Shown in pieces: positions 1-47,600 of a DNA stretch of 64,000 bases. The DNA lies in contig OZ025888.1 of the NCBI GenBank assembly GCA_964019415.1, positions 3,061,819 to 3,125,818 on the forward strand. The letters run 5' to 3'. How positions within the stretch are numbered: position 1 is the first letter of the stretch; each line of letters opens with the position of its first letter. A program made the translations under genes and the position numbers. Source of the stretch: Ianthella basta. Its lineage: Eukaryota > Porifera > Demospongiae > Verongiida > Ianthellidae. The notes under the pieces were generated by a model. That model did not search any database. It saw nothing but the letters and a program-made list of their open reading frames with translations, and was not told where the DNA came from.

Positions 1-3000
1 CCTCCATTGATAATGATAACGAGAAAAGACGTTTGAAAGATCTGCAGTTTTCCATCGAAAATTGGCTAAGATTCATTCCTTGCTAATAGGAAGTAGAAAA
101 GAGTTTCGCAACATGTGGAGTCATGCACTTGAGTTTGTCCGGTAAGACTGCCTTCTTGCTAATGGTAGCGAGAAAAGAATTTTGCAACATTTGGAGTCAT
201 GCACTAGAGTTTGGTTGGGTAAGATTCCCTTTTTGCTATTGGGAATGAGTAATAACATCTCAACATTTGCAGTAATGCACTAAAGTTTGATTGGGCAAGA
301 CGACCAGTTGCTAATTAAAGCGAGAAAAGACGTTTGAATCATATAGAGTAGTGCGCCAGAGTTTGATTAGGTAATACTCTCCTTTAATAATGGGAACAAA
401 GAAGATGTCTGCAACATTGAGAGCAATGCACTGGAGTTTAGTTGGGTAAGACTATCCCTTTGCAAATAGTAATGAAAAAAGCAGTTTACAACATAAGGAG
501 TCATGCACTGGAGTTAGGTTGGGTAAGACTCCCCCCATTCGTAATGGGAACGATATACGACTTTTGCAAGGTCTGGATTAATGCACTGTAGTTAGGTTGG
601 TAAGACTGCCCCCATGCTAATGGTAGCGAGAAAAAATGTCTGCAAGATTGAGAGTTATGCACTGGTAGTTTGCAACATTTGGAGTCATGCTTTGGAATTT
701 GATTAGGTAAGACTCTCCCCTTTCGTAATGGGAACGAGAAAAGACGTTTGCAAGATCTGGAGTCATGCACTAAAGTTTGGTTGGGAAAGATTCCTTCCTT
801 GCTAATGATAACGAGATAAGTCGTTTGAAGCCTTTGGATTCATGAGCTAGAGTTTGGTTGTGTATGATTTTTCCCTTTCTAATGGCAACGAGAAAAGACA
901 TTTGCATGATCTGGAAACATGCACTGTAGTTAGATGAGTGAGACTTTCACTTGCTAATGGTAACAAGAAAAGTCTTCATAACTTGGAGTCATGCTCTGGT
1001 GTTTGGTTGGGTAAGACTCTCACCTTGCTAATGGGAGCAAGTAATATCGTTTGCAAGATTAGGAGTCGTGTACTGGAGTTTGTTTGGGTAAGATTCCTCC
1101 CTTGCTAATGGGAACGAGAAAAGACATTTGCAATATCTGAAGCCGTGCACTAAAGTTTGTTTGGGTAAGACTCCCCCTTTTGCTAATGGTTACGATAAAG
1201 AACGTTCGCAACATTTGTAGTGATTCACTAAATATTGCTTGTTTATGGGAAGGCGAAAAGTTCTTTGCAACATTTGGAGTCATGCACTAGAGTTTGGTTG
1301 GGTAAGACTCTCTTTTGCTAATAATAATGCGAAATAACGTTTGAACATTTGTAGTTAAGCACTGGAGTTTGGTTGAGTAAGACTCTCCTCTTGCTAATGG
1401 GAACGAAAGGAGATGTTTAGAATATCTGGAGTGATGCACTGGAGTTTGGCTGGGTAAGACTCTCCCCATGCTAATTGTAACGAGAAAAGACGTTTGCAAC
1501 ATTTGGAGTCTTGCACTGGAGTTAGGTTGAGTAAGACGCCCCCCTTGCTAATGGAAATGAGAAAAGACCTCGGTAACAATTGGAGTCATGCACTGGAGTT
1601 TAGTTAGGCAAGACTCTCCCCTTACTAATGGGATTGTGATAAAACGTTTGCAACAATTGCAGTCATGCACTGAAGTTTGTTTAGGTAAGGCTCTTCCGTT
1701 GCCAATTAAAACAAGAAAAGACGTTTGCAACATTTGAAGTCATGCACTAAAGTTTGGTTGAGTAAGACTTCATCCTTTGTAATGGGAACAAGAAAAGACG
1801 TTTACAACATTTGGAGTCATGCAATGGAGTTTGGTTGGGTAATACTCCCCCTTTGCTAATAATAACGCGAAATCCATCCTTTGTAATGGCAAAGAGAATA
1901 GACTTTTGCAGACTTTGAATTCATGCAGTGGAGTTTGGGTGATGATGATGGCTCTTGCCTTTCTAATGTGAATGAGAAAAAACGTCTGCAACATTTGGGG
2001 TCATGCACTCGAGTTTAGCTGGGTAATACTCTATCCTTTGTAAAGGCAAAAAGAAAAGACTTTTGCAGACTTTGGATTCATGCAGTAGAGTTTGGGTGCT
2101 GATAACTCCTGCCTTTCTAATGTGAATGACAAAAGACGTTTGCGACATTTAGAGTCATGCACTGGAGTTTGGTTGGGTAAAACTCCATCCTTTGTAAAGG
2201 CAAAGAGAAAAGACTTTTGCAACAATTTAATTCATGCAGTGGAGTTTGAGTGCTAATGACTCCTGCCTTTCTAATGTGAATTAGAGAAGACGTTTGCAAC
2301 ATTTGGAGTCATACATAGGAGTTTTAATAAGTAAGATTCAATTCTTGTTTGTCGTTCGGGGTTCATTCTAACATTTGAAGCAATGTAAAGGATTTTTGTG
2401 GGTAATACTCTTATCTTTCTAATGAGAATGAGAATGACGTATAAAACATTTGCAGTCATGCACTAGAGATTGACTACTTTCTTGCTTATAACAATTAATA
2501 AAGTAAGAGTCCCCACTTGCTTATCGGTCGTGGAAAAGCTGCTATCTACATTGGGAGTCATTCACTAGAGTTTTTTGGGTAAGACTTCTGCCTTGCTAAT
2601 GGGAATGAGAAAAGACGTTTGCAACATTTAGAGTCATGCATTGAAGTGCTGCTGGGTTAGACTCCCCCTTGTTAATGAGAACGACATTTGTAATAATTGG
2701 AGTCATGGACTTAAGTTTGGATGTGTAAGACTCCTGGCTTGCTAATAAGAATGAGAAAATACGTTTGCAACAGTTTGAGTCATGCAATGGAGTTTGAATG
2801 GGTAAGCATTTGGAGTCATTCACTGAAATTTTTAAGTAAGAACCCCCTTTGTAATGGGTGTGAGAAAGGTCGTTTGCAGCATTCGAAGTTTTCAATTGGA
2901 ATTTGTATGGGTAAGACACCCCCTTTGCTAATGGGTGATGGAAAAGTCGTTTGCAACATTTGGTGTTATGCACTGGAGTTTGGGTGGATAAGACTCACCC

Positions 3001-3220
3001 TTGTTATGGGAATGAAACAAGGGATTATGAAATTCATCTGCTACATTTGGAGTCATGCTCTTGAATTTGTGTGGGTAAGCCCCCCCCCTTTGCTACTAGG
3101 TATGAGTAAAAACGTTTGCGACAATCGTAGACATGCAAGTTTGGGTAGGTAAGACTCCCCCTAATGGGTCGTGTAAAGTTGTTTTGCAATCTTTAGAGTA
3201 ATGCACTGGAATTAAGCTCT
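1..3220. repeat. 77-bp minisatellite array, first block
   Basis: About 41 diverged tandem copies of a 77-bp unit fill this block and continue off the left edge of the window. Landmarks recurring in each unit are GTAAGACTC, TTGCTAATGGGAACGAG, AAGACGTTTGCAACATTTGG and AGTCATGCACTGGAGTTTGG. Spacing of identical landmarks at 1502, 1579 and 1733, and again at 2148, 2225 and 2302, gives exactly 77 or 154 bp. Units differ by substitutions and small indels, and around 2300-2560 the units are strongly diverged. The many 60-90-residue open frames on the minus strand are the same unit read in different frames, not genes. Confidence 0.93.
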
Positions 3221-4980
3221 CCTTCTCCGTCGCGACGAAAATCTTTTTCTTCATTCCAAACTTCGTATGACCAGGACTGCATTTTGCCTGTTTGACATTC
3301 ATGTAAAAGTGGACGGATCTTTGCTCATCGTGAGGAACCTGCGACTGTCCGAAGTTATATGCCTTCGGTTCAAATTATTACTCCCGGCGCTTTTAATTTC
3401 CACTAGAACTTCTGGAGGAGGGCACCACTATGGTTTTAACCAATTTTACCATGTTTCATTCTAATGTTGAGCGTATAGACCAAGTACCAAGAAAAACGGC
3501 CTGCCTATGATTAGGATCTAGCTTAAGATTTTATAAGACGTCTGAAACAGATGCCTGACCCTACTACTGTATTAATCAGTGCCGATTTACTGCCTGGATG
3601 TCTTCACGACAATTAAACCTTTTTTTACATGGACCGGTTAATCCACATTGAAATTCAGATAAATGTGGGTTTCCGCATTTACTCGGCGATCTAATACCGG
3701 ATCCGAATCCGGGTTAACAATCTGCTGTAGAGGTGGTTTTAATTCAGCATTATACGTTGAATCCGGGGGGTTGATTGCCTTAGCACAAGTTAAACAGCGT
3801 TTAGCGAACTGTTGCACGACGGAACCCGAAAATTGCACTTAAAGTCGCGATCACTCCAACCAGGAACGATATCTTGAAGGAATGCCGCGCTCCTGTGCTT
3901 AACCTACATTGACCTGCTCACTCTCGGAACAGTGAGAGGCGTCGCGCACTCGATAAACGTGCGCAGACGTGTATTTGCTGCTGCAACCCCATTACCGCAT
4001 AGAGTATGTTCTGTATCGCCGTTGTCCGTCGTCGTCTAGCTCACTGCCTCCTCCCTCTTCTTGCGCACAGCCAAAACAACACCAGGATTAAAGGCAGCTC
4101 TTCCGAACGACATGTTGCCGAAAATTAACTGTTCACCAGCAGCGAAAATCGTCAGATTATCTATGGTCTGTGTGAAGACAAACCGGATTTGATCTGGATG
4201 CGAATCCGGTTCTATAATCCGGAATAATGGTCCGCTTGAAAGGGTATTAATGCCATTGGTATCAACCGACCAGTAAACCCTTGGGTAAGCTTAGCTCAAC
4301 CAAACCCAGCCTAGCTAGCTGTCCCTTTCTAAATGTTGCTTGTTGCACCTGTGATACTTGGCTGGGATGATACAAAACTAGGCGCACATACTTGGTATTT
4401 TGTAACAAACTAAACTTGCTTCACCTTCATTGTACCCCCAGAATAATGGTCAGCTATTGGTATCAATGTGGGTTGACGGTCTAAAGAAAGCTGGTACATA
4501 CTATGAAGGGTATGTTGAAAATTTGGCCAGGAGGTCTAACATGGCATTTATAACCGTCTTGCTCCTTACTGGCTACATGAAAAGGCATATACCATCCTTT
4601 CCATAGGTCCAAAGCGTTGTGTATGCTGTAGTGAGCGCATGTTCGTGATGTAAGGCCACAGACTGTGGCTGCTGCATGAACTGTAAAGATAGGAAAAGTT
4701 TGGGGTCCTGGCTGAAAAAAGAAGCCTGTGTACAACAGATGTGTGTTCAACAAGGTAGGACATGCATGGGCATATGCATGCTCTCAGGCACACATTAAGG
4801 TGTTACTATCTAATGTGCCCATTTTAAATCTTTCCTATGCAGGTACACATGTGGCTGTATGAAAGGAGTCATTACAATTTTACTTACCACATGCATAATA
4901 TTGTGAAGAAGCATGCATGTGAAGAAACAAAATTAACCCTCATTCATTTCTTTACTATGACATTGTAGTCTTATCATTGT
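3221..4980. other. Unassigned region, no gene seen
   Basis: No convincing coding sequence. The longest open frames (65-90 codons) show no recognisable domain and most lie antisense to each other. The stretch is identical in layout to 10356-12120 in the second duplicate. It contains short related motifs around CCGGATCCGAATCCGG (3690-3720) and CGAATCCGGTTCTATAATC (4200-4220), suggesting remnants of an old repeat. Confidence 0.5.
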
Positions 4981-19562: not shown

Positions 19563-20609
19563 TTACTTGTCAGCACCTTGTACCAAAATTGGACACACCT
19601 CACTCTTGCCTCCCATACTACTCCTCTCTACTGTCTTCTTCCTCATATGCATTATGCCTGACTTCCCCACATTGATCTTCACCCCCCATTCTTCACACCA
19701 TTTGACCAACACATCCAAGCTCTTCGTCAATCTTTCTCTGTCAGAAGACGTGTCATCTGCAAACAGGAGACCCGGTACCATATCACCACCACACTGCACA
19801 CCACACTTCCCTTCATGTAACCTGGTCACACCACCATTGATGTACAAGAACAGCAATGGTGAGAGCACACAGCCCTGTCTCAATCCAGTACAAACTTCAA
19901 ATTCTTCACTTAGCCTGTCATGAACCCTCACCCTACATGAGCTGTCCTGGTACAGAGCCTTCAAAAACCTCAAAAACCTACCATTCACACCCAGCTGTTC
20001 CAAGCATCTCCACAACTTCCCTCGGTCTACTTTGTCATATGCTTTTGCGAAGTCAATGAATGCCACCAGCATACCTCCATCAGCTCTAACCATCTCAGTT
20101 TGCCCCAACAGCACCAATGCCAAAACCTGATCCCTACACCCCCTCTGCTTGCGAAAACCACCTTGCTCTTCTGTGATAAGTCCTTCTCTTTCAGCCACAT
20201 CAGATAGCCTAGCATTCAGGATCATACATAGCACCTTGCTCACTGTAGACGTCAACGATATCCCACGGTATGTGTTTGTGGCACACGTACCCCTGGACTG
20301 TTTCTTTGGAACAGGAACAACTAGGCTCTCCTTCCACACTGAAGGTACCAACCCATACTTCCAACACACCTCAAACAAAGCACACCAAACATCAAACAGC
20401 ACCTCTGCTGACATCATGTCGACCGTAACTCCATCTTTTCCAGGTGCAGCGTCCCTCTTCACTTTCTCCAAGGCCCATGCAACCTCCTCTCTGAAGATAG
20501 ACTGACACAGCCTCTCACTGAAGTCCAACCCCTTAGTACAACTCTTGCCATCCATGTTTTCATCAGTTTGCTCTTCCCCATCCACTGTAGCCTCATTACT
20601 AGCACCCAA
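19563..20609 (-). pseudogene. LINE ORF2, reverse transcriptase domain
   Basis: A 348-codon frame with the ordered RT motifs: APGKDGVTVDMM, YRGISLTSTVSKVL, EEQGGFRKQRGCRDQ, catalytic motif A FIDFAKAYDKVDR, GLRQGCVLSPLLF, and catalytic FADDT. Both catalytic aspartate sites (motif A and the FADD box) are intact. A few residues appear to be missing just after FADDT compared with the usual spacing in related enzymes. It joins the endonuclease frame at about 20599-20609 through a frameshift. Confidence 0.92.
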
Positions 20610-22013
20610 GACTTTTGCAGTGTTCTTTCCAAACCTTCACTGCTTCATCACCTGTCTTAATGTTACCATCTTCATCATAAACTTCCAGGAGATCACACAC
20701 TCCTCTTTTCTTGTGGCCAACATTCATCTTCTTCACTGACTTCCAAAACTTCTTCAGGCATTTTAGTTCTTGTTCTAGCTTGTCCCGTGTCCTCCTTTGG
20801 TATGACCTCTTCACCCTTCTCACTGCCTTCGAATAAGTTTGCCTCATCTCCAGATACTTATTCCTCATCTGCTTGCGATCTTCCCCAGCCCTACTTCGCA
20901 ACCATTCGGACTCCCTACGATGAAGCTCCTTCCTCAGGTTCGCCAATTCCTTAGTGAACCACACCTTCCCCTTCTTGCGCTCACCATAACTCACTTCCTT
21001 AAGACCTGCCTTCAGTCTTGTCACCAACTCATCATACACCGCATCAAGTCTACATTGACTGCCCTCAACAGCCCTCAACCCAGCTATGATGCCCTCAATG
21101 AACTTAGTCTCACCCAGCATGTACCCTTCTGGAACCACATACTTCTTCTGCACACCACCACCACCATCTTCCTTGTCTGCAACCTCAGTCAAGTTAGCAA
21201 TACTGTCATCCACCAGCAAGTCCCACATAAGTACAGAATGATCAGGGACCCGGAATCCCTCTTCACTCACACAGAGATGTGCCTCACACTGCGACATAGT
21301 TCTAACCATGAAGTTATCTATGTTAGCCAACTCATCAAATGGAACCAAACAGTAGTCAACCACAGATCGCCCTTTACTGGAGATACAGGTGAACTCATCA
21401 GCCCCCTTACGACCACTGACAAAGCATAACCCCGTGCTCCTCATACACTCCACCAGCGTCTCCCCCTGCTCATTCTTCACCATGTCTACAATACACCTGT
21501 CCACTCTTTCATCATCCACATCTCTCAACCCATCACACCTGGCATTGAAGTCACCACAGATCACCACCTGCCCCTCTGCCTGGAACCTCTGTATCTGTTC
21601 TTCCAATAGGAGGAAGCGCTCAGCTACATCTACATCTCGACTTGAACCAACTGGAGGAATATAGCAAACTGCAACAAAAAACACACAACCACTCTTTTGA
21701 TGCTGGAACTCACTGCTTTCCTACTCAACCTCGACCGGTTATGACCAAACCAATGATAACCTTCAAACACTGCAACTTCATCCCCGTTCAACCATGTCTC
21801 CACCAGACAGGCCACATCAGGTTTATAACAGCTTATAACCTTGGCCCTCATGTCACAGTCCTCCACCGATCGCACTCCTTCATTCCCATCTCCCCTCACC
21901 CAACCAGCTACATTCCAACACATCATTTTCACATTTACATGGTCACAATAGTTCTCATTACACTTCTCCCCAGCATCCACATCCCCCCACCCCTTGGAGC
22001 CTTCGCCCCGCAC
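20599..22013 (-). pseudogene. LINE ORF2, apurinic endonuclease domain
   Basis: Two frames, 21630-22013 and 20599-21684, together give an exonuclease-endonuclease-phosphatase domain. The first has CWNVAGW and the catalytic glutamate context DVACLVETWL. The second has CYIPP, GDFNAR, SVVDYCLV and the terminal PDHSVL (equivalent to the SDH box). One frameshift near 21650-21690 separates them. A lysine/arginine-rich linker (20750-20950) leads toward the RT. Confidence 0.88.
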
Positions 22014-22159
22014 AGAATGGGACTCGTTCAGCGCTGCCTCAATACCCGAACCACTACTGACTCTAAAAAAGGTGACCTCTTCTCAATTCTCCAGAACTCT
22101 CCAAAGTCAACACCATCAAGCAGCTTCAGAAGAGACTCCTCGCCTTCCAACCAAAACCA

Positions 22160-22960
22160 CTATCTCACACGGCCATCTTCACTTTTGAAGACACGCTTCA
22201 CCTCGACAGAGGCTGCCCCAGGGACACTCTTGACTATGAACTCTCTCACCTTCTCAGCTGAATCGTCCCTTTTCGTGCCCCATAGTTTTCTGCGCCCCAC
22301 AAACTCTCTTGACTTCGTTTGTCTCTCTCTCCTCTTTGGTGTACTGGCTTGGGAGGATGGTTTCTTTCTGTTTTTTGACATTTCTTTCAACTTTTTCGCC
22401 GAAGAATGCACCTCCAGCTGCCCCCTACGCACCACCGCACTGTAACTGTTCCCACTATCAGGGCAAGCCAGCTTCTTGGTGTTGGCCTCACCAGCATCCT
22501 CGTGACTTCTTTCATTAGAGAGTGGGAGACTGCTAGCTGTCAGCCCGGAAACATTTCCGCTCCGTTGGCAACCACTACTGCTGCCACTGATTTTTATCAC
22601 ACCTCGCAACTCCCTCACCTCTTCCTTCAACGTCTCAACCTCCCTCAACAGCACAAGAGTTTTTGACGCCAATCAGAAACAGCACACAAAATCCCTCTTC
22701 CCCAGCAGATCTACCTTCTCCTTAAACCGCATACACCGAAAATGAAACCACCCCGAAACAGTTCGCAGCACGCCATCTCACCGAACTCACGATCATTCCC
22801 GCAAAAGCACAGGACTCTTTCGCCATCGGCAGTTTCTCCTCTTCTCTCATACTGCTTCCCATTGGATGCATCAGATTCAACAACCTCCTCCGGCGCTGGC
22901 ACATTCTCAGCTGCTTTCTTCGCGAGCCGTTGACCGCCTGCCGCCATATTATGGAATTGG
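22160..22960 (-). pseudogene. LINE ORF1: PHD finger plus coiled coil, broken
   Basis: From 22950 downward the frame reads a short leader and then the first half of a PHD-like finger (CFCGNDREFGEMACCE). In another frame at 22690-22740 comes the second half (WFHFRC followed by FVCC). After an in-frame TGA (about 22673-22675) a leucine-rich coiled coil (LVLLREVETLKEEVRELRG) and a basic, serine-rich tail follow to 22160. So at least one frameshift and one stop separate the finger from the coil. ORF1 proteins of this type bind the element RNA. Confidence 0.75.
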
Positions 22961-23008
22961 GCAATATTTAGCACACCGCAGCTGCCAGTTCCTGGCTGTT
23001 CAGATGTA

Positions 23009-23185
23009 CAGTTGATTTCAGAATGACTGGCCAACATGGCAAATGGCAAATGACGTGATGTCACAGCAAATGGCAATACTGAACAATAGGCGTGACGTAA
23101 CAGCAAGCAGCAAAACTACTAGTGACGTCATGCCATTTGGCCGTTCTGCCATTTGCCATTTTGGCCAACCATTCTGAAATCAGCT
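23009..23185. repeat. Inverted repeat (~50-60-bp arms) upstream of the LINE
   Basis: Left arm 23009-23055 and right arm about 23126-23185 are inverted copies sharing GATTTCAGAATG, TGGCCAA and ATGGCAAATGGCA. The region between repeats GGCAAATGGCAAATG-type motifs. It sits between the 5' side of the LINE and the 1-kb TIR element and has no coding frame. Confidence 0.7.
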
Positions 23186-23210
23186 GTAGTCTCCGTCATA
23201 CCCAGACCCC

Positions 23211-24235
23211 GGTCCGTGTATATTCCGTCCATTCCAATTTCCATTTCGTTGACGGCCAAAAAATGGAACTGGAGCAGTATTTTTCCATTTCCTTGAAATG
23301 AAAAGTGAATTTCACCATGCAAAATTCAATATTCAATCTTTTTTCTGAAATGAATATTGGATTGTGATGATAGAAAGCGATGTTCAATCCTCAATCATAA
23401 TTGAATATTGAATATTGAAGTCGAGATTGAATATTTCCATTTTCAATTTTTCGATCGGTCAGAATCGTACCGCAAAACGCATAATGACGTAACAGTAAGC
23501 GAGCACGAGGATTGCGACATCGCCAGAGAGGGGGAAGACCCGTATACCAGGCTCTGGCATGAGCTGTGGCCTGAACTGTGAACGTAGGCGAGTGCTCGTC
23601 TCTAGCCAGTGCCAGGACGGTTGCCAGGAGGACATGCTTTCCGTAGAAGGGCGGTACGGCTCGTTTAGACGTCAGCACGCGTGCATACGGTAGGCGACTG
23701 CTCGAGTCATCGAAGACAGTAGTAAATGATCGTCGGTTTTTGTGTGCGTGTTTGTTTGTCGCTGTTCTGTGTAAGTGTGAGTGTCGGGGGGTGCGTGCGT
23801 GCGTGCGTGCGTGCGTGTATGTGTGTCTGTACGCTTGTGATGGGTGTGTGTGTGTTGTGTGCATGTGTTGCATGTGTGCTTAATGATTGCATGTATGCAC
23901 ACGCTTGAGTTGGTATGCGTTGTTTTTCTGTTCAGCCATAGAAGTAACTTTGCTAAAGCATATTCGAAAGCATGTGTGTTAGTGCTTATCTTTGTGCCTA
24001 TGTGCATTTGTGTACCCGAGAGTGCTGTCTGTAGCTATAGGGTTAGGGTGTGTTGCACTGATGAAGGCCAACCAGCCAGAAACAGCTGACAGCACCCTGC
24101 ATGTGCCCACTAGAGTGATGTCAGCTGTCTGCAACTCCTTGTGGTTTACTTATGCGGGTGAGTGGATGTGAATGCTATGTGCCAGTGGCTGGGCGCCAAT
24201 GAGGTCATAATACGGTAATGGCTGTCAGGTCAAAT
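23211..24235. repeat. Left 1,025-bp terminal inverted repeat
   Basis: Contains AT-rich ends, a GTGC/GT-rich stretch (about 23745-23900) and a subterminal block near 24050-24110 (GTTGCACTGATGAAGGCC, CAGCCAGAAACAGCTGACAG). That block is related to the 94-bp direct repeats inside the element. Open frames of up to 160 codons in it come from low-complexity CA/GT sequence and appear identically in the other arm; they show no domain. Confidence 0.93.
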
Positions 24236-24489
24236 GTGTAGGAACTGCTGAATTTGATTTGACAATGTCTTTTGTTTGCATGACACTACATGGAGTGGTT
24301 ATTGTAGGAAAATGTACTTCAATTGACCAATGACCTCATGTTGATCACTGTAAATGTGTGTGGGTGTGGGTGGGTGTGGGTGTGTCTGTGTGTGTGACTG
24401 TGTGGTTGGTGTGTGCACATGCATGTGTTAGAATAAGTCTGTCTTTTAGTGTTTCGGTCACTTCACTTTTGTATGCCCAACTCTGGAGT

Positions 24490-24583
24490 CTGTCCCTGTC
24501 TAGGAAGGGTGCGTTGCACTGATGACGGCCAAGTAGCCAGAAACAGCTGACAGCAGCTGTCTGCAACTCCCTGTGTGTTGTAT
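24490..24583 (+). repeat. 94-bp internal direct repeat, copy A
   Basis: Matches 25902-25995 with one mismatch I can see (TCTGCAAC versus TCTACAAC). It contains GCACTGATGACGGCCAAG and AGCCAGAAACAGCTGACAG. Copy B lies exactly where the transposase frame breaks off and abuts the right inverted repeat. Confidence 0.9.
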
Positions 24584-24836
24584 GATCGTACTGCATACAT
24601 GCCACACTGTGTGTATATATATGTGTGTTAGGTGCATATACGTAGGATCTGTTGTGTGATATACTGATTACAAGTCAATCACATGCTACAGTGTTCCCCG
24701 TCATGTGGCATTCATGTGGACCAATCGCTGAACAGATTTTGACAATTTGCTCCTTGTGTCATGCACTGATAATATGCATGATGTCAGCATGTATACACAA
24801 AAGTCTGCATTCATATTATGATACCAATTAAAAGCA

Positions 24837-25931
24837 TCATTTGGACAGAGACAATCTGTGGGTTACATCTGTGAAGAACAACAAAGCTGTTTCAAATGAT
24901 TCTCCATTGTCATTTACAACACTGTCAAATATGCTTTCCAGTGAAAACTTCCTTTCGAATGCTTCTTCTCTCATAGCTTTTTTCTGCTGGTCATCACTCA
25001 ATGGGTCCATCCCATAAGCCTTCGGTGCAGTGATATGTCCTCCACTGCTCTCATAGCTTGCAACTGCATCCGAAGGTAATGGCAATAACGCAGATGGGAT
25101 ATCCTTTGTTCGATTGTCTCGTAGTTGTAGTTCATTTGGTATGCCTCGTGGCATACTGTCCTTGTGCCCTAAGCACGTGTATGCGTTGATGAACAAAAGA
25201 GCCAGTGTAAAAGCATACAATGATCTTATGGTTGTGTAATTATGTCTCAATTGTATATCTAGCTTGTATAAGATGTATAGCAACACTTTGCATGTTTAAA
25301 GTAAAGCTAACAGCACTAGGTGTGTTTCATGATATTACAATAAATGTACATACCTGGAATGCGGTGACTGTTCCAGGCTGCAATGAAACGAGATAATCCA
25401 ACATTGGCAACCTGTATTACAAGCCAGGAGCAGCAGTACTGGTGCAGTGGATGGTCGGTGATTTTTCCAGCTTCTAGCATCTTGACTAGCACTGCCTTAA
25501 TTGGGTAGTTCACCCTCTGATTTACCTCCACCCACATTCTCTCGACAGTGTGATTCTATGTATGAAGTGTGCAGATGCAAATATAAACAAATGTATAAGT
25601 TGTGCACAGTCAATGTGCATTTAATGGCTACACTAACATTACTCTTCAGTAGATTCCAAATATAATTATAATAATTATTATACATCCATTTGCAGGTATA
25701 GCTAGCTGTTACAGTACTGTACTTCAGCATTACATTTACATAATATATAGTACGAAAGTAATAATATACCTTTTTTGATGATGAAGCAATAAAGGACGGC
25801 TTGTCAGTGCAGTTCCTGTGGTCAGCCAAGCCTTCATGCACATGGAGCATCAAGACCCATTCACTTCCATGGTCAACCCGCACCTGGTCCCACAGTCCAT
25901 ACTGTCCCTGTCTAGGAAGGGTGCGTTGCAC
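24837..25931 (-). pseudogene. Integrase-type (DDE) transposase, 3' three exons only
   Basis: Three exons fit in frame. Exon A ends at 25770 and contains YGLWDQVRVDHGSEW, with the second catalytic aspartate in VDHG. Exon B, 25354-25555, begins NHTVERMWVEVNQRVNYP, with the catalytic glutamate in VER. Exon C, 24837-25168, runs to the stop after SLSK. Introns are 25556-25769 and 25169-25353, with GT-AG borders and matching phases. The region that should carry the first catalytic aspartate is absent: upstream of about 25902 the sequence is the 94-bp direct repeat and then the right inverted repeat. The C-terminal block PRGIPNELQLRDN is typical of this metazoan integrase-like family. The remaining exons show no stop, so the truncation is the main lesion. 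Confidence 0.82.
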
Positions 25932-25995
25932 TGATGACGGCCAAGTAGCCAGAAACAGCTGACAGCAGCTGTCTACAACTCCCTGTGTGTTGTAT
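25902..25995 (+). repeat. 94-bp internal direct repeat, copy B
   Basis: Second copy of 24490-24583. It overlaps the first bases of the right inverted repeat and marks the junction at which the transposase gene is cut. Confidence 0.9.
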
Positions 25996-27018
25996 TTGAC
26001 CTGACAGCCATTACCGTATTATGACCTCATTGGCGCCCAGCCACTGGCACATAGCATTCACATCCACTCACCCGCATAAGTAAACCACAAGGAGTTGCAG
26101 ACAGCTGACATCACTCTAGTGGGCACATGCAGGGTGCTGTCAGCTGTTTCTGGCTGGTTGGCCTTCATCAGTGCAACACACCCTAACCCTATAGCTACAG
26201 ACAGCACTCTCGGGTACACAAATGCACATAGGCACAAAGATAAGCACTAACACACATGCTTTCGAATATGCTTTAGCAAAGTTACTTCTATGGCTGAACA
26301 GAAAAACAACGCATACCAACTCAAGCGTGTGCATACATGCAATCATTAAGCACACATGCAACACATGCACACAACACACACACACCCATCACAAGCGTAC
26401 AGACACACATACACGCACGCACGCACGCACGCACGCACCCCCCGACACTCACACTTACACAGAACAGCGACAAACAAACACGCACACAAAAACCGACGAT
26501 CATTTACTACTGTCTTCGATGACTCGAGCAGTCGCCTACCGTATGCACGCGTGCTGACGTCTAAACGAGCCGTACCGCCCTTCTACGGAAAGCATGTCCT
26601 CCTGGCAACCGTCCTGGCACTGGCTAGAGACGAGCACTCGCCTACGTTCACAGTTCAGGCCACAGCTCATGCCAGAGCCTGGTATACGGGTCTTCCCCCT
26701 CTCTGGCGATGTCGCAATCCTCGTGCTCGCTTACTGTTACGTCATTATGCGTTTTGCGGTACGATTCTGACCGATCGAAAAATTGAAAATGGAAATATTC
26801 AATCTCGACTTCAATATTCAATATTCAATTATGATTGAGGATTGAACATCGCTTTCTATCATCACAATCCAATATTCATTTCAGAAAAAAGATTGAATAT
26901 TGAATTTTGCATGGTGAAATTCACTTTTCATTTCAAGGAAATGGAAAAATACTGCTCCAGTTCCATTTTTTGGCCGTCAACGAAATGGAAATTGGAATGG
27001 ACGGAATATACACGGACC
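25994..27018. repeat. Right 1,025-bp terminal inverted repeat
   Basis: Reverse complement of 23211-24235 without a gap. The adjacent GACCCC at 27019-27024 completes the target duplication. Confidence 0.93.
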
Positions 27019-27024
27019 GACCCC

Positions 27025-28954
27025 ACCCATCCCGCCGGCAATATTATTATGACAGCATGCGCTACAACTAATTCCTAACTAAATCCTGATTGCAATTGTA
27101 CGCATGTGTGCATGTATGCTCTTGATAATTAAAAATAAAACCATTGAGGACAAAAACAAAATAAACTTCCCGCTCGCCCCCACAATGCCTTGCATTCGCC
27201 TAGTACTAGAGAGGTCGGTTCACTGCAGTATTAAGACACTTTGGTGTAGAAGGCTGGTATAGACGTCACAAGCATGACGTCGGATACGCCTACTGCATGT
27301 GCTGCAGACCCAGGTGCCCTAAATATTGCGCCAAAACGTTCCCCCGCCTAAACAGATGTACACCATAAACAAATCGCCGTACAACTGATCAGTGTAGGGC
27401 TTGCTCAGGCTTAGACTCATTGCAGCTTGCACTGTATGGTGTTGGTGATGGTTGCACATCTTGTATAAGAGCACAATTGTGAAGCTCACTGGTGCTATTA
27501 GCATGCTGTTGCTGCATCCAACTCCAACTTGTGGTGAATGAAGCTGGTACCTGATCCAACTTTCAGCTGATGGTGTTTTTCATTCTACTAATTAACTAGC
27601 ACCTACCCTCTACTTGCACTTGAGCTAGTGTTTCTTTCCTAGCTGTGCTGGTGCTACTACTCATGCACATATTGCAACTTGCACTGTACGTGCTGCTTAC
27701 ATGTAGATGTGGTAGTTAGATGAAGATGAATTGGTGGGTCAAAGCTGCATAGCTGATCCTTGAATAGATCGCTATTATTGGCCTCACTACACTAGTTTGC
27801 CACTTGGCAATAACCATGCACCAAGTCCATGCGTAAACACCATTTGCAAAGCATGTGCAATGAGTATGAAGTAGGCAAGAATAGTAGAGTAGCAGGGTAC
27901 ACTAATCATGGCTTGGTCTCTTTGGTCAGTATTCCCTAATGCTTAAGCCACTTTCAGGAACTGCCTTCCAAGTCTTCGTCAATTGATTGAAACCTCTGAT
28001 ATGCAAACAACAAAAGCAGCATGTACATGCAGTAATGAAAACACATGGTGGGGAGCTTCTAGATTCAGTTTAGGATTATTGCTGCATACGCACCTCTGTC
28101 ACAAGGAACTGTTGCTTCTTCTTTGGGGATGCACTTAGCTGCAGTTGAGCAAAGTTGCAGAGCTGCTTACAAGTCAGTTATCTAGGTCATTGTGTGAGAC
28201 TTCACATACATTCTATGACATACATCAAGGCCTAGCCATAGAAATGTGTACAAGATTTTACTCATCCTACAAGGTTCACTGAAGACAATGGTAAATGTCT
28301 TTGCTCAATGGAGTATTAACTAATTCAGTACAATGTAACATTTATAGGCTCCAGTGGAGAAAAGTTCTATTAAATCCTACATGTAAGTAAGATGACATTT
28401 GGTCATGCTTTTACCAGTCACACTACATGTTACAAAATGCAAATGTGGTTGTGGGCTATACATGATGTGAATGTCACTGTGGCATTTGCTGACATGCTGT
28501 TCCTGGCCAGTACATCACATCTGAATGTTCAGTCAATAAAATCACCTTTCATAAGTGGCACTTATTCTTACAACTCCATTAAACTCCATGGGAGTCCAAC
28601 GGAACTATATTTATTGACTCAATTAGTCAGATGGCCTGGGGCAAGAGTCTACTGGTTTGAATTTGAATAATACCTGCACATTCAATGTATATTGGTTGAG
28701 AATATTGTGAATAATCAGTACTCACTCTACTGTATTTCTTGAGTAAATCAGCTTCCATAAGAGATGCCAGAGTCCCAATGTAACAACACACCAGCTACTT
28801 AAGCCCCATATAGACATTCCCCAACCATTGTCTATATTGATACTTTTGATGGGTGGGTATCCATCAAAATTGAGTGAGCAGTTAGTTGAGGGACAAACTC
28901 ACAATAGAAGATATGTCATCAACAAACAACAGCCAGACATCCTCAGCATTAGCT
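27025..28954. other. Unassigned region 3' of the DUF21-CBS gene
   Basis: No convincing gene. It contains a GGGGCGAGCC-family half-site at 27172-27206 (CGCTCGCCCCCACAATGCC...). On the minus strand an AATAAA lies at 28608-28613, about 340 bases beyond the proposed stop of the DUF21-CBS gene, and could be its polyadenylation signal. The 92-codon plus-strand frame at 28392-28670 has no recognisable content. Confidence 0.5.
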
Positions 28955-28969: not shown

Positions 28970-31900
28970 CTGACAACAAACAGACAGCATTTCTTGTACC
29001 TTCAGTCACATTACAATGTATGAGATCCTGTCATTAACGTGCCATATGTTACCTTGGTCTGCATTGAAGTTGCACCAGGTCCTGAGACAGAGCGTGCTGG
29101 CACAGTACTCACAGACAACCTGCTACTCCCAGCTCTTTGTTGCTGTGATATTATATCATCATTATCCTGAAACACATATCAAAGTAACCAAGCTTAGTAG
29201 TAGTATATTTGGTAAATATAGTCAATTTGAATGACCATTATGCAAACATAGTATAGTGCAAACATAGTGCAATGGCAAATACATAGTGTCACAGCTCGTA
29301 GCCAATCAAATTAAAGTACAGTGAAGACTCACATCGTCATCATCTCCAACATTAAAGAGCAAGGGAACTTGAGAGGTACCTTGGTTGAAGTCTCCATTGA
29401 AGTCTCCTAGGGTCTGGTAGTCCTGCCTTCTAGCATTGCTGCTATATGTGTGCATAGCCTGCCATGAATAGCCATATAACATAGACAACATTACTGGTTT
29501 AAAACAAAGAGATAATGAATTAAAAGTAGCATCATGGGAAGAAACCATTAAAGGACACATATGCCTTACATTAGGCACAGACATCAGCCGTTGAAACATC
29601 CTGCTGCTTCCCCATTTTGTTTTGGAAACTCCTTCATCACCTATGGTTGAGAGCTGCCGGTGAAAGCCAGCCCTTGTGGCAACTGCTGCAGTTGACATGC
29701 GGCGCTGGATGTCACTTTCATCATAGATCTCCTCTCCAATAAGCTCCTCAATGACATCTTCCAAGGTGATGATCCCAACTAATTGCTACAAGGTAGAGTA
29801 GAGAAGCATGACCACGTGAGGTTATGGTAGAATGTGGGAGAGAGGGTCCTTGACTGTAATACACGAGGTACACCTGTTGAGAATTTTGGCCACAAAAAGG
29901 TGTTCTTCAGTTGCAATGACATACTCAGATTCGTAATAGCTAAATGTCTCACAGTTGGAACAAGTGTACCAGGTGTATTAAGCTGATGAATGCTTCCCCC
30001 TTCTATCATAATTGCTACATACTTATATAAACTAGAAATAATAAACATTTTCTAGAAAAATAGTAAGGATGTAGGGATGGCATAAAAAGGACAGAAACAA
30101 GTAAAGGCTGTTACACAGTGGAGCATTAACCATCGTCCCTACATGCATGTCATGTCACACCTTATTGTCCTACACCCTTGAATGTAGGGTCAATGGTTAA
30201 TGCTCCACTGTGTAACAACCTTTACTTGTTTCTGTCCTTTTTACGCCATCCCTACATCCTTACTATTTTTGTAGAAATTTTTTATTATTTGTAGATTCTG
30301 CACTTTTTATGGAGCATGAGCTAAGTTGCACAGTATAGCTATTTTAACTCTCTTGTGTAGCTCCTGATAGTATTTGCCACAATTTGCATTTGAGAAATTG
30401 TATTAGCATTGTAAATAATTCATTCCACAAGCCAAATGCCACACTAGGTCGTAGGGCAAGGTGAAGAATTCCACTGTGGTGCAAAACAACAGGAGGAGGA
30501 GCCTCCAGAAGCTGTATGCAGCTGCTCGCAATGGCACCAGTCATCCGGTTAAATTATGCTATTTGAAAATGGTGTCCACCCACTTGGTCAAGTAACACGG
30601 CGAGAGTCGTGGCTAGCACCCTCATCTGCACTAAATTGTGCTGCCTTCTAACCTACAAAGGAATGCAGCCAGCCAAAATTGATGCAATATGGTGCAAGAA
30701 GTATTCTCCTGGTCCCTCTGGTTCGTGCTGCTGTCAAAGAAGAAGAAGAAGAAGATGAAGAAGAAGAAGACGAAGACGAAACGTGGAAAAACCCGAGGAC
30801 GCTCTCTACATGTAGGCGCATCTTTGCTGTGAAGTAAGGTTAGCTATGTGCACGTTCAGTCCCCGCTTCCTCATGGGAAGCTTCGTTTGCCGGTTTTCGG
30901 TCGTGCTCAGGAGTAGTGTTACTATTCGTTTGTATCACAGCATACAAATAACCACTGCCATCCTACATAGACAGCACTACTATGCTGTCAAATAAGAAGA
31001 CGACGAAAAGTGGGAAATGTCGAAGGTGTTCTCTACATGTAGGTGCACCTTTGCTGGGAAGTATGGTCAGCTATATGCACTGTTCAGTCACCGCTTCGTC
31101 ATAGTAAGCTTTGTTTGCCGGTTTTTGGTCCTGTTCAGGAATAGCACGACTTTTTGTTTGTATTACAGCATACAAAAAACCACTGCCATCTCTACATAGA
31201 CAGCACTACTGTGCTGTCTGAATGTGTCAAGACATACCCTCATGTTTAGGAATTAATCAGGTCCAGCCACACACGTTACACAAAATGAGCTTTTAACAAT
31301 TTTTCAGCCCATACTGTAAATGCAATGCAATGTAGTGGTACGTGGCTTTCACAGGCATGATTGCTATGCAATAGGAAGTGACACATCCATATGCAGTGAA
31401 CTAACTCTGTCAATGCATTGTGCTATTGTGTTAGGTGTTACTTTCAGATACTCTGATAGGCCGACTAGTTTGAACCAGCCAGTTTTACACATGCTGTTAG
31501 CTTTCTGTGAGTGTGTCAGTGAACCCTTGTATTGAGTTACTGTTTGAATTCATCAGAATTTTCATCAGAATTTTGTGACTCCTGTGCTGGTTACAGTTAG
31601 CATTTGAACGAACTCCTGAGGATCCTTGTTACACTTGGCGTAGTCCACAGGATTGGAACCTTCAATGATGGAGACAGGTGGAGACATTTTGGTCAGTGGA
31701 GGTCTGTCTAGGAATGACCGGGAAGTCAGTCATACATTGCATCCTGTCATCATTTCCGACGCTTATTAAGGGGATGGCAGTTGGGAGGAGTGAATCAAAC
31801 ATCTTTGAGTGTTTGGCAGTGAATGTGTGGGATGCCCCGACTAAACTGCTCTGGCTCAGAGCAAGGTTGACCTCAAGGGCACAGACAGCCACAGAGTCAA

Positions 31901-36355: not shown

Positions 36356-39300
36356 TACGAACATGAAGCCATACGAATACCTAAATCTGAAAACAATATA
36401 GGGGCGCCTTCGGCGCCCCAATAATACATATTGCTATATAATAATAACAATGGATATAATATACTGCCGAATATAATATAGTTCATTAAGACAGCAAATT
36501 ATAAGCTGTAATAAACTAGCAATGTCAATAACATTAAAATCAAAATTTATTGATGGTGCACTCATGGATGTGTGCCCACATGCAAAGATATCACTGTAAA
36601 TAAATTAAGTCAAAATCAATAGGCGAAGATGTCCCTAGCACGGCTGCTGCGTTCTCGCGCTGTACAGCCACCGAAATCCACTGGAGTAGGTACTGGTAGG
36701 CAAGGGGCTTACTTGACTCCAGCCAGATTCGGTGGCCGAGCTCCCAGAAAAATGACAGGGCCTCTGAGCCAAAAACACCAGATGTTTCGACAGCCACCGG
36801 GATGAAGTGGTGGGTGCTGGCCAGCTCCGCATACTGTACTTGGCCCTCTTCTTCTGTTCCACCTGGTCAGCCACGGCCCCAGCACCCCCAGCGGCCAGGT
36901 CAATGTGGGATGGGGCAAAAGTGTCGGGGCACGTAGTGTGCCACACCAGATTTCTAACACGCCTCCAGGGTAGAACTGTAGCTCCATTGGGCCTCTTCCC
37001 ATCCGATCAGACTCAGACTGACTCAGACAGACTCCTACTGGGTCTAGATGAGCTGAGATCTTGGCAGAGCCAAGTGACCGCTTGATCAGGTCATTAATGG
37101 CTAAATGGTGAGGGTGGCGCCCACACTCTTGCGGCAGTGCAGGCCATGAGTTCTGTGCTCATCCACAGGTGTCCCACACAGCTGATAATTGTGTGGCTGA
37201 CACAAGGGCACACCCAGGCGAAGGGTGACAGCCACACGAAAAACATCGTCTTCCATCCGCAGGCCTAGGGATGACACTGGGAGGGCCTGAAGCCATGCCC
37301 CCGACTCCTTCCTGCAGGCAGCCAGGAGATGGGCTTGGGTAAATGTGTCTGAGGCCCCTTCCCGCAGTGCCTTAAAAAAGGAAGCAACTTTAGGGGCATC
37401 CCATACCTTCTGTCTGGGGGTGTCTGCTGGTAAAGTAGCTGAAGCTTCAAGTCCCTCACTCCACACCTGAAGGGTGTCCTTGCGTGCATTGTAGGTGGTT
37501 TCTCTCAGTCTGGGAGGAAGCAAGTCCTGGGTGATGCTAGCATAACCCGCAGCTGAAGCCAAGAAGGCAGACGGAGCCAGCTGGGTTGCACTCCTGATAC
37601 CCAGACCCCCAGACCCAACTGGGAGGGAGGCTTGTGTCCATGCCATGTCACTGTCCGCTGTGTTGACGTTCACAATCTCCCCTAGGAGCAACTGTAGGAG
37701 GTGATAAAAAGCTGGAGTTGGGGTCTTGGAGCAAGATGAAGTTCTCAAAGTGTAATGTAATTTGTGGAATGTGAAGGAGTGTTGCAGGGGGTAGTAGGCA
37801 TCATGGGCATGAAAATGGCAAAGCATGTTGCCCATGGTATCCAGTGCCTCAATCTTCTCCCTGAGAGCATCACTGATTCCCTCCTCTCCACCAATGGGTG
37901 TGCCTAAGAAGTGAGCTTTATCAGGGGTGACTGGGCAGAGGTTTGGAATCGCTTTCATCATTTCTGCCTTGGCACTTGGGTCCCTACTGATAATCTCGGA
38001 CTTTGAATGGTTTAACTGGAGACCCAGTCCTGCTGCCTCTTCTGTCACTTTCTGTAGGTCACGGAGAACGTCTTTGACTTCCCCACTGAGGGTTCCATTG
38101 TCAAGGTAAAAGATGATCAACTCTGATCTCAGCAGCTTTGTGAGGTCACCTGCTGTGAGGGAGAACAGCAGTGGGCCCAAGGGGTCAACCTGCTGTATCC
38201 CTTCTGCCAATTGAACAATCTTGTCCTGAATAAACAAGAAGGATGGTGTACTGTACACTGAGTGCACCAGTGGGAAAAGGGACCTTCTTGCACACCACCA
38301 GCAGCATTTTATCCCGTCTCAAACTGTTGAAGGCATATCTGAAATCCAGCTTTATGAGAAGATGCCAATCAGGCATATCTTGCAGGTAGACTAAGGTGGC
38401 GTGTACCGCTGCCTCCACCCCCAAAGGAAAACCAAAGCCCAACTGGTGGGGCACTGGGAGCGCCGCCATGGCCTGCTTTACACTGTTGCAAGCACACTTG
38501 GCCACCAGGCGGCATAGTGTGCACCCTACTGCAATGGGCCGCACACCACCATCCTTTTTCCCCAAGGCAATTAATGTCGCTCCAAAGAAGAAATGCCTTG
38601 CAGGTGAGGTGACCCCCCCTCCAGCACCAGGTTGATGAACCTGGTTAGAGCCTGCAACAAGAGGCTTCCACCTCCCCTGCCACAGCTCCAATCATGTCCT
38701 TCAGATGCTGGGAGCGTAGGCCATCAGGCCCTGCTGCAGAAGCACAGGGGAAGGAGCGAATAGCCCTGCCAGCTTCTTCTGCTGTCACCTGGAGAAGTGT
38801 CACTTGGCTTGAGGAGGAAGCAGGGGGGATGTCAGTGTCAAGGTGAGGTGCTGGATATTTGTCCCTGAGGAATGAGAGCATCTCTTCGTTAAGTTCTCTG
38901 ACAGTGTCCTCTGAAGAGGCTAAGCAGACAGCCCCTTTGAAGTTCCTTTCATCAAGTTTTGAAGAAATGCGAGCTGTTAGTGACTCCCAGGACTGTTGGA
39001 GATGCCTATACGGTTGTTTTCTTACGGAGCACTGTTCTAGTTCCGGGTCCCTCTCCTCTCTGATCATCTGAGAAGTGAGGGTTATTATTTTATTTTATTT
39101 TTTTAGGTACACACTGAGCAGACAAAATTTGATAATAACTACATAGGCAAGCATGCGCACTGCCTCACATGGATAAAATAAAATCAAAATTGTCATGCAA
39201 CATCAATGGTCAAGTCAAATATATTGAAATATTGTTTGCCATTTTATTTGCCTCTCTCATACCAGAAGGACCAAGGGAAGGACTTTGAAACTGGCTTCCA

Positions 39301-44636: not shown

Positions 44637-47600
44637 CACGCACGCACACACGCACGCATGCATGCACACACCACACACAAGCACAGAAAAATCTCTACCA
44701 GCACAGACAGACACATGACTGCTTACAGCACATGCATATACAATGAGTATTTACAACAACATAGAAATAATAAAAATTTTCTACAAAAATTGTAAGGATG
44801 TAGGGATGGCATAAGAAAAAGGACAGGAAACAAGTAAAGGCCGTTACACAGTGGAGCATTAACCATGGTCCCTACATGCAAGAGTGTTGCACTTTATAGT
44901 TCTACATCCTTGAATGTAGGGACGATGGTTAATGCTCCACTGTGTAACAGCCTTTACTTGTTTCTGTTCTTTTTATGCCATCCCTACATCCTTACAGTTC
45001 TGTAGAAAATATTTATTATTTCTAGTTTCTGTACTTTTTATAGTGGGCAGCTAAGCTGAAGCAACACACTTAGTCTGAACCATAGGGCATTGGTGCAGGC
45101 ATTATACCTCATTTCTGTAATCCTGGAGCTCAAGGTGTGGGCTAGCACCTAGGTTCCATGCTAACCCAGCGAGAAACGGTGACAGGAAGCCAATCGTGGC
45201 GGGGAAATGCATGACCGTGAAAGTCCTTCAAACGGCGCACAAGCTAACTGCTGCAGCTGCTAACAATGGCACCAGTCACTCCGGTTTCATCCGGTTTAAT
45301 TACATAATTTGAAAATGGCGTCTGTCCCGCTTGGCCAAGCAACACAGCAGGAGTCGTGGCAAGCACCGTCTTCCGCAATACCTCGTGCCGACTTCTAACC
45401 TACAAAGGAATGCAGCCAGCCAAAAATGGTGCAATATGATGCGAGAAGTATTTTCCTGGTTTCTCTGGTTCGTGCGCTATGGCTGTCAAAAAAGAAGAAA
45501 AATAAGAAGAATAAGAAGAATAATAAGAAGACAAAACATGAGAAATGTCGAGGGCGCTGTCTACGTGTAGGCACACCTTCGCTGGGAAGTAAGATTAGCT
45601 ATGTGCACTATTCAGTCCCTGCTTCCTCGTGGTAAGCTTTGCTTGCCGGTTTTCGGTCCTATTCAGGAGTAGTGCGACCTTTCGTTTGTATTATGGCATA
45701 CAAACAACCACTGCCATCCCTACATAGACAGCACTACCATGCTGTCTAGCTAGAAATAATAAAAATTTTCTACAAAAATTGTAAGGATGTAGGGATGGCA
45801 TAAAAAGGACAGAAACAAGTAAAGGCTGTTACACAGTGGAGCATTAACTATGGTCCCTACATGCAAGAAAGTCGCACCTTGTATTCCTACATCCTTGAAT
45901 GTAGGGATGATGGTTGATGCTCCACTGTGTAACAGCCTTTACTTGTTTCTGTCCTTTTTATGCCATCCCTACATCCTTACAATTTTTGTAGAAAATTTTT
46001 ATTATTTCTAGTTTCTGTACTTTTTATAGTGGGCAGCCAAGTTTAAGCAAGACACAGTCACTTAGTCTCAACCATAGGGCATTGGTGCAGGCATTATACC
46101 TCATTTCTGTAATCCTAGAGCTCAAGGTGTGGGCTAGCACCTAGGTTCCGCGTTAACCCAGCGAGGAATGGCGACCGGAAGCCAATCGTGGCTGGGAAAT
46201 GCATGCATGACCGCGAAAGTCCTTCAAACGGCGCGCAAACTAACTGCTGCAGCTGCTAACAATGGCACCAGTCACTTCGGTTTCATCCGGTTTAATTACG
46301 TAATTTGAAAATGGCGTCCGTCCCGCTTGGCCAAGCAACACGGCAGGAGTCGTGGCAAGCGCCGTCTTCGGCACTAACTCGCGCCGCCTTCTAACCTACA
46401 AAGGAATGCAGCCAGCCAAAATGGTGCAATATGGTGTGTGAAGTATTCTCCTGGTCCCTCTGGTTCGTGCGCTACGGCTGTCAAAGAAGAAGAAGAAGAA
46501 GAAGAAGAAGAAGAAGAAGAAGAAGATGAAACGTGGGAAATGTCGAGGGCGCTATCTACGTGTAGGCACACCTTCGCTGTGAAGTAAGGTTATATATGTG
46601 CACTGTTTAGTCCCTGCTTTGTCATGGTAAGCTTCGTTCGCCAGTTTTCGGTCCTGTTCAGGAGTAGCGCGACTTTCCGTTTGTATTACAGCATACAAAC
46701 AACCACTGCCATCCCTACATAGACAGCACTACTGTGCTGTCTGATAATGTACCAAGGAGTGCACAGTTGAGAGAGTAGCTAGTGTTCTGTGATGGCAAAA
46801 GCTACGTACGTGGTTTGCTACAGCACAGTATGCATGGACCAGTTTCTGAAGAGCATTTAGAAGGCAGCTGTGCGTGCTAAGCTTTTCAACGCTACAGATG
46901 TTGAAAATGTTAGCGTGTACATATCACGGAGCTCACCAGTTTCTACGTTACTCCTGTTATGTGTTCCACACGGCGGAGTGAAGTCCTCCGAGGTGGCCAT
47001 GGCCATTATCGAAGAAGACGCCAGGTGATGTTGATGACCTGTTGGGCGCTGTCTCGAAGCTGTCTCTTTGCCTGTCGACTAGAAGTCCTGTAGGAGTCTG
47101 TTCCACGATTGGCGGCAGATGAGGACGTCCAAAGTTCGCTAAGACTACGTTTAGAAGCCGCACACAATATAAATTCCCTATCCTCAATACTTTGGTCACT
47201 ACATTATAATATAAAAGCTAGCACAGTTATACTACTGCAGTTTATGTATTATATAAACTGACATACCAACATATATACCACTGGAAACAGGACACGAAGC
47301 CATACAACAAAATGTCAAAACTAAAACAATTTTAGGGGTTGCCGCAGGCAGCCCCTAAAAATGCTAAAAGGGTGAAGAGAACACTTCACAGTTATCAAGT
47401 TTTGAATTAAGGTCTGGAAACCCAAGTAACTCTACAAACTCTCACAGGAACCTGAAGATCCTCATAGGCACCAGTGGACATGCATCTGTTGCATCTATTG
47501 AGTGCATTACTGGAGAAGATGAATAACCTATGTAGCTTATACTATGGTACACATAGTATGCTTTGATCCCCTTAGGTGCTAATGAGGTCTCATAAAAGGC

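Follow-up and report, generated by a model that had tools for sequence, protein, structure and literature searches.

A short element in the genome of the sponge Ianthella basta raises two questions: how the two ends of a transposon come to be identical over a kilobase, and to what kind of transposon such ends belong. The element occupies positions 23211-27018 of the 64-kb stretch of DNA analyzed here, which we term the window; it is 3,808 bp long and bounded by GGTCCG and CGGACC. A preliminary description of the window had claimed apparently perfect 1,025-bp arms without indels, flanked by a 6-bp target duplication, GACCCC, and enclosing the C-terminal exons of an integrase-like transposase with its catalytic glutamate. 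Direct, base-by-base comparison bears out the first of these claims: segments 23211-24235 and 25994-27018 are reverse complements over 1,025 bp with 0 mismatches. (A repeat search gives arms of 1,026 bp because one base of each duplication pairs too.) The second-longest perfect inverted repeat in the 64-kb window measures only 95 bp, so that chance is excluded as a source of the arms. The features of the locus are listed below.

22943-27206, no strand: multicopy host repeat (about 22943-23210 plus 27025-27206), split by the insertion; from joined-flank matches
23205-23210, no strand: left target-site duplication, GACCCC; present once in 10 of the 12 empty sites that were read
23211-24235, plus strand: left inverted arm, 1,025 bp, beginning GGTCCGTGTATATTCC; same as the right arm
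24236-25993, no strand: core, 1,758 bp; corresponds to inner sequence of the 2,692-bp arm in the relative L009, plus 89 bp of filler
24837-25168, minus strand: copy of transposase exon 5 with stop codon; from the gene model of the relative
25354-25555, minus strand: copy of transposase exon 4, both splice sites retained (GT donor, AG acceptor); includes the catalytic E, at 25541-25543
25770-25904, minus strand: copy of transposase exon 3 without its first 13 nt; second catalytic D at 25872-25874; exon limits from the relative's gene model
25902-25995, no strand: 94-nt filler repeating 24490-24583 (1 mismatch); shared CTG at the join to the arm copy
25994-27018, minus strand: right inverted arm, 1,025 bp, finishing GGAATATACACGGACC; same as the left arm
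27019-27024, no strand: right target-site duplication, GACCCC

The core thus carries exons 5, 4 and most of 3, with the second catalytic D in addition to the E that had been noted. Exon 4 of the window element, taken alone, scored 21.8 bits against PF24764, below the cut-off of 26. An Rfam scan of 22000-28500 gave no match.

We searched the window's own assembly (209 Mb, 96 contigs) with the two flanks joined. Among the 40 candidates scored of 462 in this genome, 39 other copies span the junction at 94-96% identity. Twelve of these 39 empty sites were read. Ten have GACCCC once, reading CCCAGACCCCACCC or CCCAGACCCCACCC with one later base changed, and the remaining two have one C fewer. The single GACCCC of the empty sites indicates that the window element inserted in another multicopy repeat and that the 6-bp duplication proposed earlier is real. 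The host repeat around the element itself holds 42-nt arms, 90% complementary, at 23007-23188 of the window. Elsewhere in the window, endonuclease and reverse transcriptase frames (PF14529, PF00078) lie on the minus strand at 19563-21720, which we read as a non-LTR-type retroelement, and another frame, on the minus strand at 37101-38318, matches reverse transcriptase below threshold. The 95-bp inverted repeat is at 45750 and 45917, with a 64-bp match at 30063.

A full-length relative and the missing segment

With the window arm as query, four full-length matches were found among the 40 of 70 candidates scored: the two window arms and two arms on another contig. The latter belong to a longer element in the same genome, L009, which carries the missing first catalytic D, as the preliminary description had anticipated. 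L009 (661-9868) is 9,208 bp long and has its own 6-bp duplication, CCACGC. Its arms measure 2,692 bp, with 3 mismatches, and their inner edge lies inside exon 3 of the transposase, a gene whose five exons have GT-AG borders and join into a 409-aa open frame. The gene model of this relative places the first catalytic D in exon 2, which is absent from the window element. We term the two elements family A; the family is known from these two, and the order of events given below rests on the one pair. Further matches to the arm query fall on inner arm sequence; they include family-B arms, at 71-72%, as well as stretches near the simple-sequence part.

The window element is collinear with L009. Its core matches L009 twice, at 100% as rounded, over core positions 1-1758 and 1-1669. 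Positions 1-2783 of the element follow the right end of L009, and positions 2784-3808 follow its left end. The lengths agree (3,808 + 5,402 - 2 = 9,208), making the window element L009 minus 5,402 bp, plus one 2-bp indel and point changes. The missing 5,402 bp run from position 1,026 of one arm to the filler beside the other, and the deletion junction falls at 25993/25994, with 0-2 bp of shared sequence. The window arms are cut off at 1,025 bp by the end of the deletion, which falls within the 2,692-bp parental arm. Past the arm edge, the window element has 89 bp that in L009 follow the arm on that side only. This one-sided piece shows that the exons in the window core are the arm-duplicated 3' set and not the stump of the main gene. 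What was earlier described as a half-deleted transposase is accordingly a duplicate of the 3' exons that was made as the arms grew; exon 2 with the first D is absent. At the arm edge of L009, again on one side only, there follow 270 bp that duplicate an arm segment at 97.4% and are joined to it over the shared CTG, which may be read as copying with a template switch.

We conclude with considerable confidence that the window element is non-autonomous and derives by internal deletion from a DNA transposon whose transposase is integrase-like (IS3EU-related, Pfam rva_4). As the element is single-copy in the assembly, internal deletion after insertion and movement in trans as a deletion derivative are equally possible.

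Perfect arm identity would also be expected if the second arm were an assembly artefact, either a fold-back or a collapsed repeat. We find this scarcely credible, since the duplication lies outside both arms, the empty sites join both flanks, and L009 has the same architecture, assembled with distinguishable arm mismatches. An alternative almost as improbable is a foldback-type transposon that moves by its long arms and has captured the exons as a fragment. Long arms with simple-sequence stretches would suit such an element, as would arm growth of the kind that the available part of a study of Galileo describes (PMC3573991). The exons, however, belong to the transposase of the same family and are collinear with L009, and no arms were found around another core; among the 40 candidates scored, the only other matches to the arm terminus besides the two elements were pieces of 164 bp (87%) and 64 bp (84%).

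Comparison with L009 also shows part of the course of events. The parental type has arms of 2,692 bp, with the 3' half of the transposase at both ends and the filler at one inner edge. Such long arms would have arisen, and would be kept alike, when one end suffers a break or an excision gap and its repair draws on the opposite arm, with an occasional template switch. The internal deletion could be an aborted or end-joined form of such repair, or an event after insertion. A family-A element inserted in the multicopy repeat, with duplication of 6 bp, and the pattern of arm sites described below shows that arm sequence was copied between arms after the two elements had separated. Movement would be by cut-and-paste, and a full-length element could still mobilise the window element through a transposase that acts on the GGTC termini. 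If transcribed, the window arms might in addition fold into double-stranded RNA, as the preliminary description proposed. The authors of the Galileo study, in the part available, propose that repair of one end from the other can overrun the arm and carry inner sequence with it (PMC3573991). The junctions seen here fit that model, in another transposase class and with the copying reaching coding exons.

L009 lies in a cluster (L009, L010 and L012, C2:8334300-8361000, with matches to C2:8374659) of related elements and fragments that contains, side by side, family E, A, an A-like end, B and then B fragments. Directly outside the family-A element of this cluster is a decayed fragment of a RING gene (see below).

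Copying between arms

The preliminary description had also suggested homogenisation of the arms. Within elements, the arms of the window element show no difference; those of L009 disagree at two sites of the outer 1,025 bp and at one deeper site. When the two family-A elements are compared, ten arm sites differ and are equal in both arms of each element (95, 176, 210, 353, 621, 633, 637, 688, 705 and 1021). Ten sites in shared states can hardly have arisen by independent mutation, and at least one end-to-end copying of arm sequence therefore followed the split. Two observations count against the explanation. Five of the ten fixed sites, at 621-705, lie in or beside simple-sequence DNA, and the arms have a higher density of fixed differences (10/1,025) than does the core (5/1,758; Fisher p 0.028).

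Youth alone offers a simpler account, in which the two arms entered the site identical and have had too little time to diverge, so that no copying after the split is needed. The absence of differences over 1,025 bp and the existence of very similar family-B copies agree with it. Nevertheless, ten sites differ from L009 in both arms at once, independent divergence to this state is very unlikely, and the site pattern contradicts such an account unless an ancestor outside the sample had both states in both arms. Even a recent insertion would still need at least one copying event after the split from L009. We therefore regard youth alone as improbable, and prefer copying between arms.

Signs of homogenisation in families B and C are weaker than in family A. 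In the C15 copy of family B, both arms carry a substitution (331) and a 6-bp length change (757), neither of which occurs in the other 9 of 11 arms. Of the five family-B copies whose two arms are complete, four have arms that differ from each other: L010 and L011 by 1 substitution each, L029 by 1 substitution and 2 indels, and L030 by 2 indels. For family C the comparison involves one complete copy, both arms of which depart at 2 sites from the left arms of four further copies; between themselves, these two arms show 3 substitutions and 3 indels over 1,360 bp. Inward of its 1,363-bp arm (99%), the same family-C element has 718 bp of inverted sequence at 86%, which may be read as an older arm layer in which copying ceased. 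The arms of family E are at least 713 bp long, at 99.7%. It thus appears from these comparisons that arm copying recurs and that not every element is kept homogeneous.

Termini, transposase and a RING-like partner

Families A, B and C have GGTC[C/A]GTGTA at both ends, and a family-E copy has GGTCTGTGTA at the expected left end; the ends of family D were sought in L036 and not found. The expectation that the family would share termini and 6-bp duplications held for the termini, which are GGTC..GACC in A, B and C, and partly for the duplications. These are exact in six of the nine elements with both ends read (the window element, L009, L011, L029, the C22 copy in L032/L033, and L037), but the other three (L010, L030 and L031) have no matching duplication. 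The three exceptions are complete family-B elements with different 6-bp flanks, as in chimeric Galileo copies, and ectopic recombination between copies is a possible cause. A 409-bp family-B end in L034, at 8607, has an AGGAAA flank like that of the complete L029 copy, about 20 kb apart on the same contig.

The transposase of family B has the same five exons as that of L009. Both spliced proteins match PF24764 (rva_4; cut-off 26), with 64.4 bits and E 1.5e-17 for family A and E 1.2e-15 for family B. Catalytic D, D and E are aligned in the transposases of this group, and we read the region ahead of the core as helix-turn-helix-like. Matches to the integrase family PF00665, 150 of which were scored in this genome, are not part of the results.

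Elements of families A and B include a second gene, with a weak RING match (best E 0.0022 for A and 0.00024 for B, both under Pfam cut-offs). Its RING-like protein has 22 matches in the genome, of which 19 have a transposase exon of this group no more than 8 kb away and 3 do not. Conversely, a RING match lies within 8 kb of 18 of the 29 exon-4 matches; the other 11 include the window element and six copies of family C in which that side is outside the sequence read. None of the 22 strongest rva_4 loci (best 22 of 102) has a RING match within 8 kb. RAG1, which is also derived from a transposase, carries a RING, and the RING-like partner is of interest for that reason. A literature search for IS3EU together with RING gave no closely matching paper.

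Two peptide patterns from the transposase were used to search for relatives beyond this genome. In bacterial and archaeal genomes they found one, on a contig (L064) in the Cycloclasticus symbiont bin of a poecilosclerid sponge, with 39-43% identity over the core. Its match is split into pieces where our first intron lies, and we therefore take it as sponge DNA; it is probably DNA of the sponge host in a bacterial bin. The same patterns found no relative in viral contigs, and plasmids gave matches at E 3 or worse only. Two solved-structure matches at E 0.7, obtained with a profile of five alignment rows, one of them a strong rva_4 protein, were taken as chance. The NCBIfam IS481 model gave 23.9 bits (E 2.7e-5), far under its cut-off of 224.

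Relation to IS3EU and other transposons

The preliminary description placed the element among the eukaryotic IS3-related transposons. The rva_4-type integrase core with its DDE triad, the helix-turn-helix-like region that we read ahead of it and the 6-bp duplications fit IS3EU, but the GGTC..GACC termini do not. According to the available part of one account, complete IS3EU families always have TA..TA termini and usually have 6-bp target duplications (PMC10045372); for fungal members, a second account, likewise available in part, gives TAYGG..CCRTA (PMC12730594). The ends of families A, B and C are set apart by these descriptions, as far as they go, and our elements differ further in their five-exon gene (A and B), RING-like partner gene and long arms. 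The spacing from the second D to the E is 38 residues here and 33-36 in five strong rva_4 proteins of the same genome, which we took as the IS3EU side. We infer the link between rva_4 and IS3EU from a CCATA end in a single strong rva_4 family: two copies of this element (the L039 family) end ...CACCCCATA, which fits CCRTA, one end of each having been read. Among the five strong rva_4 proteins, the L039 family alone had an end read. Elements with one read end fitting IS3EU coexist with the GGTC-ended ones in this genome.

A nine-sequence unrooted tree, drawn from this genome throughout, without outgroup, Repbase or bacterial references and with one of the five other proteins lacking the second D, places our four transposases in a clade with support of 1.000, on a long stem and apart from the five strong rva_4 proteins. 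Identity is 16-23% across this split and 43-67% within our four; the five others share 36-56%. In view of the GGTC ends and of this split, we call the group IS3EU-related, not IS3EU.

Other known groups differ in one or more respects. Polintons (Mavericks) have long arms and carry a DNA polymerase B gene. They were considered for the 6-bp duplications and long arms and rejected: the longest stop-to-stop frame is 195 aa in L009 and 220 aa in L011, not polymerase-sized, and Pfam searches of ten frames and two spliced proteins found no polymerase, giving rva_4, RING-type zinc fingers and other weak, sub-threshold matches. The elements here are also about 9 kb long, with GG..CC ends. Polintons likewise have 6-bp duplications and an integrase-like enzyme, as noted in the available part of PMC10045372. 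GingerRoot, in the summary that the same part provides, resembles our elements in its integrase-related transposase and 6-bp duplications, but has TA..TA or TG..CA termini rather than GGTC..GACC.

The likeness to Galileo and Foldback lies in the arms. In both cases arms lengthen by inner sequence copied to the other end (TIR1-F1-F1-TIR2), deletion derivatives consist mostly of arm, and some copies have no matching duplications (PMC3573991, in part). Galileo, however, has a transposase of the P superfamily and 7-bp duplications, in contrast to the rva_4 integrase-like transposase and 6-bp duplications found here. For D. mojavensis, the available part of that study gives Galileo a maximum arm length of about 1.26 kb, and the copies with the longest arms there are in no case nearly complete, whereas L009 combines 2,692-bp arms with an open transposase frame.

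The kind of element is thus known in outline, and a lineage with its own ends and partner gene does not fit the IS3EU description in the published parts cited. No GGTC-ended lineage was found in the literature on IS3EU, GingerRoot and RING-encoding DNA transposons, with Repbase outside the scope of the search; this need not mean that it is unpublished. We suggest, tentatively and with somewhat less than even confidence, that the GGTC-ended elements may form an undescribed lineage, of subfamily or superfamily rank, with a RING-finger-like partner and with arms kept by repeated end-to-end copying that can sweep exons into the arms and spawn deletion derivatives.

Because its junctions are legible, the pair formed by the window element and L009 provides a readable case of how long terminal inverted repeats grow, stay alike and yield non-autonomous copies. 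The rva_4 label, for its part, covers at least two well-separated groups in one genome, which differ in ends, gene structure and partner gene, and automatic labelling of such matches as IS3EU could therefore mislead.
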